Shown here: piece after piece, positions 7,578 through 11,030 of the stretch | How the letters are laid out: the number at the start of each line of letters is the position of its first letter | Numbering within the stretch: the first letter of the stretch is position 1 | From: Aureliella helgolandensis | Lineage (GTDB): Bacteria; Planctomycetota; Planctomycetia; Pirellulales; Pirellulaceae | Length of the DNA stretch: 64,000 nucleotides | Assembly (NCBI RefSeq): GCF_007752135.1 | Contig: NZ_CP036298.1 | Span: 2,914,001 to 2,978,000, forward strand | Direction: 5' to 3' | Position numbers and translations under genes: made by a program | The notes under the pieces: generated by a model | Database searches by the model: none | What the model saw: the letters and a program-made list of their open reading frames with translations, nothing else | Told to the model about the DNA's origin: nothing

Positions 7578-10500
7578 TTGCAATCGATGGACCCTACTAT
7601 AGCGTCTGTGTACCCAGTTGTTCCCGGCGTGAGCGACTTGGATTTAGAACACTTCACTGGAAATCAGCCTCCACCAAGAACGAATTTGGTGGCTGTCCTT
7701 CAGCATTGGGCGAAAGTGCGCGGTGACGAGCCCGCGTTCTACTTTACCGACGGTGAAGATGGCGACACTGATCAGTGTTTGACTTTCCGCGAACTCGATG
7801 CCGCGGCCAGAAATGTGGGGGGCTACCTGCAGAAGCAGGGGGCGGCCGGCGGTCGCGTCCTGTTGGTCTACCCACCGGTGCTGGACTTCGTCATTGGCTT
7901 CTTCGGTTGTTTGTATGCTGGGGCGACGGCGGTTCCCGCCTTTCCACCGCGGCGCAATCGCAAAGGGCAGCGGATTCACAGCATCGCCCGAGATTGCCAG
8001 GCACAGTTGGCTTTGACCAATGAGCATGTGCGGCAGCAAATCGAAGCGGACGCCAATTGGGTGGAATGGGAATCCATTTCGATCATTGCGACGGATGGTC
8101 TACCGCAAGACTATTCGAATTCGTGGAAAGCCCCCAACATTGCTGAGGATGACCTAGCGGTGTTGCAGTACACCTCGGGTTCCACTGGTCAGCCCAAGGG
8201 GGTGATGTTGTCGCATGGCAACCTAGTGCGGAACACTGAAATGATCATGGTCGCCTTCAAAGCGGATGGCGACACGGTTGGGGTCAGTTGGTTGCCGACC
8301 TATCATGACATGGGCTTAGTGGGAGGAATACTCGCGCCTGTATTCGTGGGTCGACCGAGTGTATTAATGAGTCCGATGGCATTTCTGCAAAAGCCGATTC
8401 GCTGGTTGCGGACCATCTCGCGGTATGGTGCAACCATTAGTGGTGGCCCTAACTTTGCGTACCAGTTGTGCGTCGACAAGATCGGTGACGAGGAGTTGGC
8501 TGGAATCGATCTGAGTAGTTGGGTGACCGCGTTTAATGGTGCAGAGCCGGTCCGCGCAGCCACTTTGAAGCAATTCACGGAGCGGTTTGCCAAGGCCAAG
8601 TTTCAGGAAACGGCGCTCCTTCCCTGCTATGGAATGGCTGAGACCACTTTGATCGTAACGGGTGGACCGCAGTATGAACCGCCAGTCGTTCGCACCTTTG
8701 ATGCGACGGCCTTGGATCTGCAGAAAGTTGTACCTTGCTCAGCTGATCAGGAGAATGCGCGCGAGTTGGTGGCAAGTGGAGCGATCCTACCAGGCGAGAC
8801 GGTCTTAATCGTTGAACCTGAAACGGGATGTGTATTGGATGCAGGCGCGATAGGGGAGATTTGGGTCATCAGCCCGAGTGTTGGGCATGGCTATTGGGAG
8901 CGTGAAGAGGCGACTCGCGAGATTTTTCAAGCCATGACGTCCGACGGTGCAGGGCCCTTTCTGCGAACGGGCGACCTGGGATTCATGTTCGAAGGTCAGC
9001 TGTTTGTGGCGGGACGGCTCAAGGACATGATTATTGTCCGCGGAGTGAATCGTTACCCGCAAGACATCGAGCAAACGGTGGAATCGGCCCATGAAATTAT
9101 GCAGAGTGGGCTCGTCGCAGCATTTGCCGACACCTCGGATGACCGGGAGCGGCTAATCATCACCGCCGAAGTTCCGAAGCGGCGAGAGGAGACCGATTGG
9201 GATCAATTGATGCTCACCATTCGCCGCGAAGTGGCACAGCAACATGACTTGCCGCCGGACGCCGTCATCTTGGTGCGTTTCGGCACCTTGCCACGGACGT
9301 CGAGCGGCAAGATTCAGCGGCATGCGTGCCGCCAAGACTTTAGCCGTGGCTCCCTGAAGATTGTGGCTCAGTGGAAGTCTTGGGAGATCGACCTGCCGAC
9401 CGGGGGTGAGCCGATGATTGCCGCGTCCACCCTACGGCAGTCCGGAGGCGACAACGGCCAGGTAGTCGAGGAAGCAGTCGATTCCTCCGCGTTGGGGGCT
9501 CTGGATCACGAAATTGTTGACATCGTCATGGACGCAATTCGTGCCGTGGCGCAGGAGCGAGCAAAGCAACTCGATCTACATACGAACATTGTATTGGACC
9601 TGGGGCTCGATAGTCTTGAGCGCATGCAGATTGCCCATTCGCTGGAGCAGACCTTTGACGGACGCTTCCCGGAGCATGTTCTGCAGGAGATCGAGACCGT
9701 CCGTGAAGTTGCGGAGGCGATTGACCGGTATCTGGGGAAGAAACGCATCCGACGGGAGCTGGTCCCAACGGAGACTGGACTCAAGCCCGCGGACAGTCGG
9801 AAAGTCGAAGAAGAGGACTATCGTTTCGATCAGTTGCCGGAGTATCGGCGGTTGAAGCGAACCATGCTTCAATTCGAAATGACTGGAGTTCCCAACCCCT
9901 ATTTCTCCGTTCATGAAGGAATCGTGCGCGATACGACGAGGATTGCCGGGCGTGAACTGATCAGTTTCTCGTCCTACAACTACTTGGGGATGTCAGGCGA
10001 TCCGGAAGTCACACAAGCTGTCATCGAAGCGGTGCAGGAATACGGCTCGAGCGTCAGCGCATCGCGATTGGTGAGCGGTGAGAAAAAATTGCACCGCGAA
10101 TTGGAAGACGGGATCGCTGAATGGATTGGCACCGACGCATCCATTGTTATGGTAGGCGGGCACGCTACCAATGAAACGACGATTGGGCAGATCGTAGGTC
10201 CTGGTGACTTAATAATCCATGATTCGTTGTCCCACAATAGTATTGTTCAAGGTGCGATGCTCTCCGGAGCACGGCGACGACCCTTCCCACACAACGATTG
10301 GCAAGCCCTGGAGAGTATTCTGGCTGAAGTGCGCGCAAGTTACCGCCGCATTCTGGTGGTCATCGAGGGCGTTTACAGTATGGATGGCGACTACCCCGAG
10401 TTGCCAAAATTCATCGAAGTCAAGAATCGCTACAAGTCTTGGTTGATGGTTGATGAGGCCCATTCGATCGGGACGATGGGGCCAACCGGACGCGGTATTG

Positions 10501-11030
10501 CCGAACATTTTGGGGTCGATGCGCGGGGCGTTGATATCTGGATGGGGACGCTCAGCAAGTCCTTCGGAAGTTGCGGAGGCTACATCGCTGGATGTGCTGA
10601 GCTCATCGAGCTGCTGAAGTACACCGCACCTGGCTTTGTGTTTAGCGTGGGGCTTTCCCCTTCCAACACGGCCGCCGCGCTAGCGTCGCTGAAGACGCTC
10701 AAAGCGCATCCGGAACGCGTGCAGACCTTGCGCAGCCGGGCCCAGTTGTTCTTAAATGAGGCCAAGAAGAGGGGGTTGAACACTGGGGATTCCCACGACA
10801 CGCCGGTAATCCCGGTGATCACGGGTAATTCTCTCCATGCACTACTATTGTCTCGCAAAATGTTCGAAGCGGGAGTGAATGTGCAGCCCATTCTTTATCC
10901 AGCGGTGGAGGAATCTGCGGCTCGATTGCGTTTCTTCATTACCTCAACGCATACCGAAGAGCAGATTCGGTATACGGTAGAGAAGGCAGCCGAGGCGCTC
11001 GAAGAAATCCATCCGGCCTATTTTGCGTGA
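7578..11030 (+). CDS. Fatty acyl-AMP ligase - acyl carrier protein - alpha-oxoamine synthase fusion
   Basis: Three enzyme parts are fused in 1150 residues. Residues 30-600 are an adenylating enzyme with the A3 loop [17 protein letters not shown] (from Tyr198), [28 protein letters not shown] and [20 protein letters not shown], the last typical of fatty acyl-AMP ligases rather than CoA ligases. Residues 645-720 are an acyl carrier protein with the phosphopantetheine serine in [10 protein letters not shown] (Ser679). Residues 765-1145 are a class II PLP enzyme of the AONS/KBL/serine palmitoyltransferase family: [29 protein letters not shown], and the PLP lysine in GTLSKSFGS (Lys994). Inferred reaction: activate a fatty acid, load it on the ACP, then condense it decarboxylatively with an amino acid to a 2-amino-3-ketone. 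The frame opens at TTG 7578, preceded by AAAGG; ATG 7587 is an alternative. Confidence 0.93.

Follow-up and report, generated by a model that had tools for sequence, protein, structure and literature searches.

A fused fatty acyl-AMP ligase, acyl carrier and alpha-oxoamine synthase of Pirellulales as a candidate self-loading serine C-acyltransferase

Counterparts of the protein described here are known in split form and in forms fed by polyketide synthases (PKSs). The characterized split form is the AasR-AcpR-Spt system of Caulobacter, which is described as preferring acyl-ACP; a fatty acid is activated, put on a dedicated acyl carrier protein (ACP) and condensed with serine by an alpha-oxoamine synthase (AOS), as proposed below for the fusion, but by three separate proteins rather than by one (PMC9386255). 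In Pseudomonas fluorescens MYb115, PfSgaAB is reported to turn L-serine and a long acyl thioester into 3-ketodihydrosphinganine. Its AOS belongs, as judged through plasmid relatives, to the same branch as that of the fusion, but is a separate protein whose acyl chain is made by an iterative PKS, whereas in the fusion a fatty acyl-AMP ligase (FAAL) would load a ready fatty acid within the same chain (PMC12134224). According to the same report, the product of purified PfSgaB is 3-ketodihydrosphinganine, and the enzyme accepts virtually only L-Ser when Ala and Gly are the alternatives. Sphingomonas serine palmitoyltransferases (SPTs), which are of the Caulobacter Spt kind, fall in a different AOS clade from the fusion. 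In Sinorhizobium meliloti, the proteins that we take to be RkpA, RkpG and RkpH (the record itself is without these names) include an AOS 52% identical to that of the fusion, with a short-chain dehydrogenase/reductase (SDR) gene adjoining; this AOS is fed by a KS-AT-DH-ER-KR-ACP PKS, unlike the fusion with its FAAL.

The layout itself is already known. Blastopirellula marina A3ZWL3 and Microscilla marina A1ZVW4 are entered as 'A-CP-PLP2' in a 2013 catalogue (PMC3870968 Table 2), with specificity unassigned or given as 'generic amino acid', and with cluster type and product blank. As the catalogue describes them, both have the three-domain order of the fusion, and one comes from a Pirellulales genus. 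The same source uses SPT as the template for modelling the PLP domain from a Synechococcus 'AMP-binding enzyme' and docks serine into it. It also describes PigH, which like the fusion has a carrier before the AOS, but features two carriers and no FAAL and leads to prodigiosin, and A-CP-KS-AT-PLP proteins, which begin with an A domain as the fusion does, but have KS and AT in between (PMC3870968). The first-pass annotation had spoken of a little-described pathway. This stands for the fused form, of which no functional study was found in the open-licence literature, but not for the layout, in print since 2013, nor for the split and PKS-fed counterparts. A FAAL review (PMC11837247) holds no mention of oxoamine, sphingo, PLP, aminotransferase or planctomycet, and an eLife FAAL study (PMC8460268) none of oxononanoate, aminotransferase or planctomycet.

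The fusion is encoded in the Aureliella helgolandensis genome, a single contig of 8.44 Mb, within the stretch of 64,000 nucleotides analyzed here (the window). Residue counts refer to 24 aligned fusions, the window protein and 23 relatives. The features are as follows.

7578..11030, plus strand: FAAL-ACP-alpha-oxoamine synthase fusion, one intact ORF of 1150 aa, start TTG 7578 or ATG 7587 (codon 4)
7680..9377, plus strand: fatty acyl-AMP ligase part, residues 35-600, end-to-end phmmer match to 7r7e (538 bits)
9525..9722, plus strand: acyl carrier protein, residues 650-715, PF00550 (43.8 bits)
9612..9614, plus strand: Ser679, predicted phosphopantetheine attachment, present in 24/24 aligned fusions
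9882..11009, plus strand: alpha-oxoamine synthase (serine C-acyltransferase-like) part, residues 769-1144, from profile and sequence matches, tree and AlphaFold model
10557..10559, plus strand: Lys994, predicted PLP Schiff-base lysine, from alignment to SPTs, in 23 or 24/24 fusions

The true start may be the ATG at 7587. All Pfam matches are above cut-off (AMP-binding 230 bits, DIP2-like AMP C-terminal domain 43.8, PP-binding 43.8, Aminotran_1_2 174), and the reading of FAAL, ACP and AOS as one chain is thus borne out by an intact ORF. Both motifs singled out at first pass, a 'DSL' serine and a 'SKSFGS' lysine, are present, as Ser679 within LGLDSLERM and Lys994 within TLSKSFG. Alignments spanning the entire chain, at ~50-81% identity, were obtained for some forty of 60 relatives and for 128 other genomes of the order, which excludes a chance origin of the three-part ORF.

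Fusions of this type are found across one order, identified as Pirellulales from the names of the relatives. Matches at 1e-60 were found in 58 of the 60 relatives, the source genome counted in, and matches at 1e-150 in 186 of 188 Pirellulales genomes at least 95% complete, some in one part only. A search for homologous three-part fusions, as suggested at first pass, yielded a single alignment across all parts in at least 129 of the 188 (hand count), six of these with one or two stops inside; other Pirellulales genomes show two aligned pieces inside one ORF of ~1,160-1,330 aa. In a class-wide draw, in which scoring covered the four best candidates of each genome, 45/45 genomes of the order match at 1e-100 (G037, G038 and G048 in the FAAL part only), as do 21/104 genomes of other orders, none across the whole chain; the latter matches cover the FAAL, sometimes with the carrier, and once the AOS alone. 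In a phylum-wide draw 9/195 genomes match at 1e-150, and 7 of these are Pirellulales. Among the best 80 of 586 loci, the named relatives are Pirellula, Rubripirellula, Rhodopirellula, Blastopirellula and other Pirellulales, the closest being a Pirellulaceae MAG (80%). Full-length fusions outside the order, among the same 80, reside in a Limnothrix cyanobacterium and in MAGs labelled, as given by the database, Desulfobulbaceae, Phycisphaerales, Phycisphaeraceae, Limisphaerales and Bacteroidetes. Spt-like proteins have been counted in 138 Planctomycetota MAGs from the Black Sea (PMC11334938); no report on sphingolipids in Pirellulales was found by title in the open-licence literature.

Compared with solved FAALs by phmmer, the adenylating part matches 7r7e (538 bits over residues 35-600), 3kxw (425) and FadD32 (364). 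We take 7r7e to be RsFAAL, its chain positions 217 and 265 being Met and Phe in the alignment, as expected, and 3kxw is presumably a Legionella FAAL. In RsFAAL, Met217, Phe265 and a helix at ~240-243 are named as keeping CoA out (PMC8460268). In the alignment to 7r7e these pair with Met245, Phe293 and residues 268-271 of the fusion, and Met245, Phe269, Phe293 and the catalytic Lys578 are each found in 24/24 fusions. By these sequence criteria the adenylating part is a FAAL with CoA-excluding residues, and not an amino-acid A domain. The suggestion that activation, loading and PLP-dependent condensation are joined in one polypeptide without acyl-CoA gains support from the predicted FAAL identity and from these residues. 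Two phosphopantetheinyl transferase candidates are present in the genome.

The branch to which the PLP part belongs was traced through plasmids, where 352 records match the AOS domain at 1e-40. Six loci were opened, and their AOSs are 52-58% identical to the AOS domain of the fusion. Five of the six follow or end a PKS-type protein: the AOS comes after a KS-AT-DH-ER-KR-ACP PKS in a Pseudomonas TMW plasmid, among genes annotated as capsule biosynthesis, and in S. meliloti pSymB, where an SDR follows and one capsule-annotated gene is nearby; behind an annotated PKS and an LpxC-like gene in Paraburkholderia; at the end of a PKS in Planktothrix; inside a KS-AT-ACP-AOS protein in Streptomyces. The sixth locus, from Methylobacterium, is unannotated. 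In a tree of 45 rows rooted at midpoint, Pirellulales AOS domains, plasmid rows and further fusions form one clade (30 rows, 99/99), apart from the bacterial SPT clade (100/98) and from KBL/BioF and Thermus AOS (99/84). A second tree, including two eukaryotic LCB2 rows, recovers the same RkpG/SgaB-type clade (26 rows, 100/99), and in both trees the window AOS falls outside the clade of solved bacterial SPTs. The PLP domain thus joins the RkpG/SgaB branch. The plasmid rows are placed with PfSgaB by analogy, through the shared PKS and AOS gene pair rather than through the PfSgaB sequence. The first-pass annotation held that the PLP part does not reveal which amino acid is used; this seems less open than supposed, because the branch includes PfSgaB, a demonstrated enzyme near-exclusive for L-serine.

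The two LCB2 rows branch next to the RkpG/SgaB clade (98/93) in the second tree, from which seven rows were left out (the genome's own BioF, L136, L053, L055, L060, L032, L074). In AU tests, the groups of which were defined after seeing a first tree, the alternative of LCB2 with bacterial SPTs is rejected with one LCB2 row (p 0.007) but not with two (p 0.125), the branch support rising nonetheless to 98/93. These trees give a hint of kinship between LCB2 and the RkpG/SgaB branch.

Residues contacting PLP or serine in the Sphingobacterium multivorum SPT were taken from PMC10196870 and PMC3870968, as given there. In alignments to SPTs their equivalents in the fusion are His886, Asp959, His962, Thr991, Ser993, Lys994, Ser829 and Arg1118, each kept in 23 or 24/24 fusions. 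An AlphaFold model of 9861-11030 has a mean pLDDT of 86.6. The best 50 rows of a structure search with it are all AOS family members (TM-score by query 0.83-0.90), including SPT, ThAOS, KBL, ALAS, BioF and the cysteate enzyme; the search bears out the fold class without telling SPT, KBL, ALAS and BioF apart. By model and alignment together, the part is a fold type I PLP enzyme with the Lys, Asp, His and Arg set present. Curated SPT models score below cut-off (303.6/640, 273.1/500 and 214.7/670 bits). Three RkpG/SgaB-type rows that were scanned likewise remain under these cut-offs, so the curated SPT models do not cover this branch.

Fusions of the same layout arose on more than one occasion. 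In the 45-row tree the Limnothrix (L133) and Bacteroidetes fusions have AOS domains inside the canonical SPT clade, and one clade of all 21 fusion AOS rows is rejected (AU test, groups likewise defined after a first tree, p 1.6e-48). In a quick FAAL tree, in which row L142, a wrong-frame reading, was disregarded, the FAALs of the Limnothrix fusion (L133) and of the Bacteroidetes and Desulfobulbaceae fusions (the other two rows, L130 and L136) group with non-fusion FAALs (SH-aLRT 100); the same tree also fails, at weak forks, to unite the Pirellulales FAALs. Because the one-clade constraint is rejected and these FAALs group with non-fusion ones, FAAL-carrier units have been joined at least twice to an AOS, from two AOS lineages, of which one is the SPT clade. 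Downstream of the Limnothrix fusion comes an SDR gene; its product shares 41% identity across 263 aa with the SDR adjoining the S. meliloti AOS and is likely an RkpH-like 3-ketosphinganine reductase. This convergence makes the strongest indirect case for an architecture that serves to transfer acyl groups to serine, although the L133 AOS is in another clade than that of the window.

Broken or split copies were also observed. In one genome, G015, the fusion (L053) carries Thr in place of Lys994, with His886 replaced by Asp and Ser993 by Gly, and its sequence includes undetermined stretches. G015 also encodes a separate carrier-AOS of 502 aa (L087). As L053 has lost Lys994 and His886, while L087 keeps both, the AOS role may have moved to the latter gene. 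In G009 the chain is made by two overlapping ORFs, with the break between FAAL and carrier, possibly due to a sequencing error.

The fusion looks like a stand-alone gene, because 230 bases separate it from the upstream ORF, and the downstream gene probably starts at 11166. The downstream ORF, a Gfo/Idh/MocA gene, opens at 11031 and abuts the stop of the fusion; its probable start is the ATG at 11166, with a Tat-type signal. An operon with this gene was rejected on account of that start, and of the presence of its cluster in only 6/41 loci. Neighbour ORFs were called by simple rules, which may miss short genes. The most recurrent encode a BBP7-like barrel protein (13/41 loci), a TraB/EF-hand-like protein (10/41) and a TIM-barrel protein (10/41); enolase, riboflavin synthase-like, rRNA methylase, release-factor-like and further proteins were also scanned. 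No conserved neighbour with a pathway clue was found across the 41 loci. The sphingolipid ketoreductase and N-acyltransferase that the first-pass annotation proposed to seek could not be assigned: no dedicated gene for either was identified in the genome. The S. meliloti SDR matches 19 places, the best full-length at 29-32%, and the best candidate, found in 42/45 genomes of the order and 45/104 others, is not order-specific and does not track the fusion. An LTA-synthase-like relative was not found in the genome, in a search run without positive control.

The fusion is best read as a serine C-acyltransferase that loads itself, does without CoA and gives a 3-ketosphinganine-type base, with a probability of about 0.68; serine, chain length and the reaction itself are what we infer. 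The FAAL would adenylate a free long-chain fatty acid, and the acyl group would pass to the phosphopantetheine arm that the built-in carrier bears at Ser679, CoA being rejected by FAALs. The C-terminal PLP domain would hold L-serine as external aldimine. Condensation of acyl-carrier and serine, with loss of CO2, would give a 3-ketosphinganine-type 2-amino-1-hydroxy-3-ketone and holo-carrier, and a thioesterase would not be required. This reading is favoured because of the domains, the catalytic and CoA-excluding residues, the RkpG/SgaB clade, the adjacency of LCB2 and the split Caulobacter counterpart; the reductase next to L133, separate Kbl and BioF-like genes and the phosphopantetheinyl transferase candidates also count for it. 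Against it count the missed SPT cut-offs, the higher score of the BioF model, the lone gene, the lack of assigned partner enzymes, Ala828, the placement of the L133 AOS in another clade and the absence of titles on Pirellulales sphingolipids.

A first step as above may lead to the lipid anchor of a surface polysaccharide rather than to a membrane sphingolipid, an outcome which overlaps in its odds with the best reading and appears rather unlikely. A lipid-anchor role is associated with rkp/wcb-type clusters. The capsule-annotated genes around or near the Pseudomonas TMW and S. meliloti AOSs fit it, as do the Limisphaerales MAG fusion, with genes for an ABC ATPase, an ABC-2 permease and a sulfatase-family protein behind it, and the Phycisphaerales MAG fusion, with an ABC ATPase gene behind it. 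However, no KpsC/KpsS-type capsule protein was found in the genome, by a search whose controls matched in 2/14, and the 19 other window genes scanned include no capsule gene.

The same three-step machine could use another amino acid, either Ala or Gly, to give 1-deoxy-type aminoketones, or cysteate, to give a capnine-type sulfonolipid base. The amino acid cannot be read from the sequence alone, the S. multivorum SPT is reported to accept also Ala, Gly and homoserine (PMC10196870), the acyl-ACP-using cysteate enzyme of Alistipes shares the fold class, and residue 828 is Ala in the fusion, but Gly (Gly80) in the S. multivorum SPT. This is unlikely, given the PfSgaB branch. Tyr800 (21/24 fusions) is also Tyr in Sphingomonas SPTs and LCB2, but Asn in KBL, BioF and the S. 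multivorum SPT; Ser829 agrees with Sphingomonas SPT and LCB2 rather than with KBL; and the cysteate enzyme is more distant (184 bits, against 240 for LCB2).

That FAAL and ACP feed a separate PKS, the AOS acting on extended chains only, is highly improbable: KS-AT-DH-ER-KR-ACP-AOS paralogues occur in some Pirellulaceae and A-CP-KS-AT-PLP chains exist (PMC3870968 Table 2), but the carrier directly precedes the AOS in the same chain, and nine neighbours scanned include two FabH-like KAS III and no PKS. A plain role as a BioF (biotin), ALAS (heme) or KBL (threonine) enzyme, the N-terminus being decorative, can be set aside as extremely improbable, since BioF, though the best-scoring curated model, remains below its cut-off (346.4/426.45 bits), as does KBL (293.7/460), the tree sets the window AOS apart from both (99/84), a separate Kbl (650.6 bits, cut-off 460) and a separate BioF-like gene (390 bits on a partial reading, cut-off 426) reside in the genome, and homologues are mostly fused, rather than always split and dedicated to biotin or heme, the case that the first-pass annotation had named as adverse.

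A wider proposal is tentative and, taken as a whole, doubtful: sphingoid-base making may be a core Pirellulales trait carried out by one CoA-free self-loading protein, SPTs so built may have arisen at least twice in bacteria, and the AOS branch of the fusion, not the Sphingomonas or Sphingobacterium SPTs, may be the nearest bacterial kin of LCB2. If the self-loading serine enzyme is the right reading, a whole planctomycete order would have a sphingoid-base gene missed by curated SPT models. Free fatty acid and serine would be converted to long-chain bases by a one-protein, CoA-free route, which would be a useful biocatalyst, and both the membrane content of Pirellulales and the origin of the eukaryotic SPT would become testable.

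The long ORF that follows the FAAL-ACP-AOS fusion in the window is called from a GTG and touches the stop codon of the fusion. This contact is likely an ORF-calling artefact, as the true start is probably ATG 11166, followed by a Tat-type signal. Two genes of the ketoacyl-synthase III type also reside in the window.

11031-12491, +, long ORF as called from GTG 11031
15434-16696, +, ketoacyl-synthase III (PRK09258 model, 438 bits, cut-off 285)
4938-6023, second FabH-like gene

The gene at 15434-16696, which we take to be OleA-like, possibly functions in hydrocarbon or long-ketone synthesis.

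Altered or divided fusions were found in two related genomes, G015 and G009.

L053 (G015), 7667-11146, -, fusion with altered PLP domain
L087 (G015), 5964-7472, +, separate carrier-AOS protein
L054 (G009), 8014-11473, fusion read as a pair of ORFs that overlap, 594 aa and 585 aa long

In the PLP domain of L053, neither the Schiff-base lysine nor the stacking histidine is retained; both residues are present in the carrier-AOS protein of the same genome. In L054, the break falls between FAAL and carrier.

At other loci fusions are followed by additional genes.

L176, 3438-7281, fusion, then ABC ATPase, ABC-2 permease and sulfatase-family protein
L125, 3780-4733, fusion, then ABC ATPase
L133 (Limnothrix MAG), 5959-11995, FAAL-ACP-AOS, then RkpH-like SDR and a further FAAL

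Genes behind the L176 and L125 fusions may serve export and head-group steps; the sulfatase-family protein scored 89 bits against a phosphoethanolamine transferase model, under the cut-off of 500. The L133 set is a candidate compact sphingoid-base operon in a cyanobacterium, and its AOS belongs to the canonical SPT clade.

In AOS trees, LCB2, the catalytic subunit of eukaryotic SPT, is placed beside the RkpG/SgaB/fusion clade, away from bacterial SPTs. AU tests of the alternative grouping of LCB2 with bacterial SPTs gave p values of 0.007 with one LCB2 row and 0.125 with two; the kinship with the RkpG/SgaB/fusion clade is a hint.

AOS domains of the RkpG/SgaB branch, which includes that of the fusion, also terminate three Pirellulaceae chains measuring 2,555-2,607 aa.

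L095, 3419-11086, chain with terminal AOS
L096, 3837-11576, chain with terminal AOS
L097, 2546-10369, chain with terminal AOS

The domain order, scanned in the L095 and L096 chains, is KS-AT-DH-ER-KR-ACP-AOS in both. The three chains would be PKS-fed, and would represent a second route within Pirellulaceae, beside the FAAL-fed fusion.
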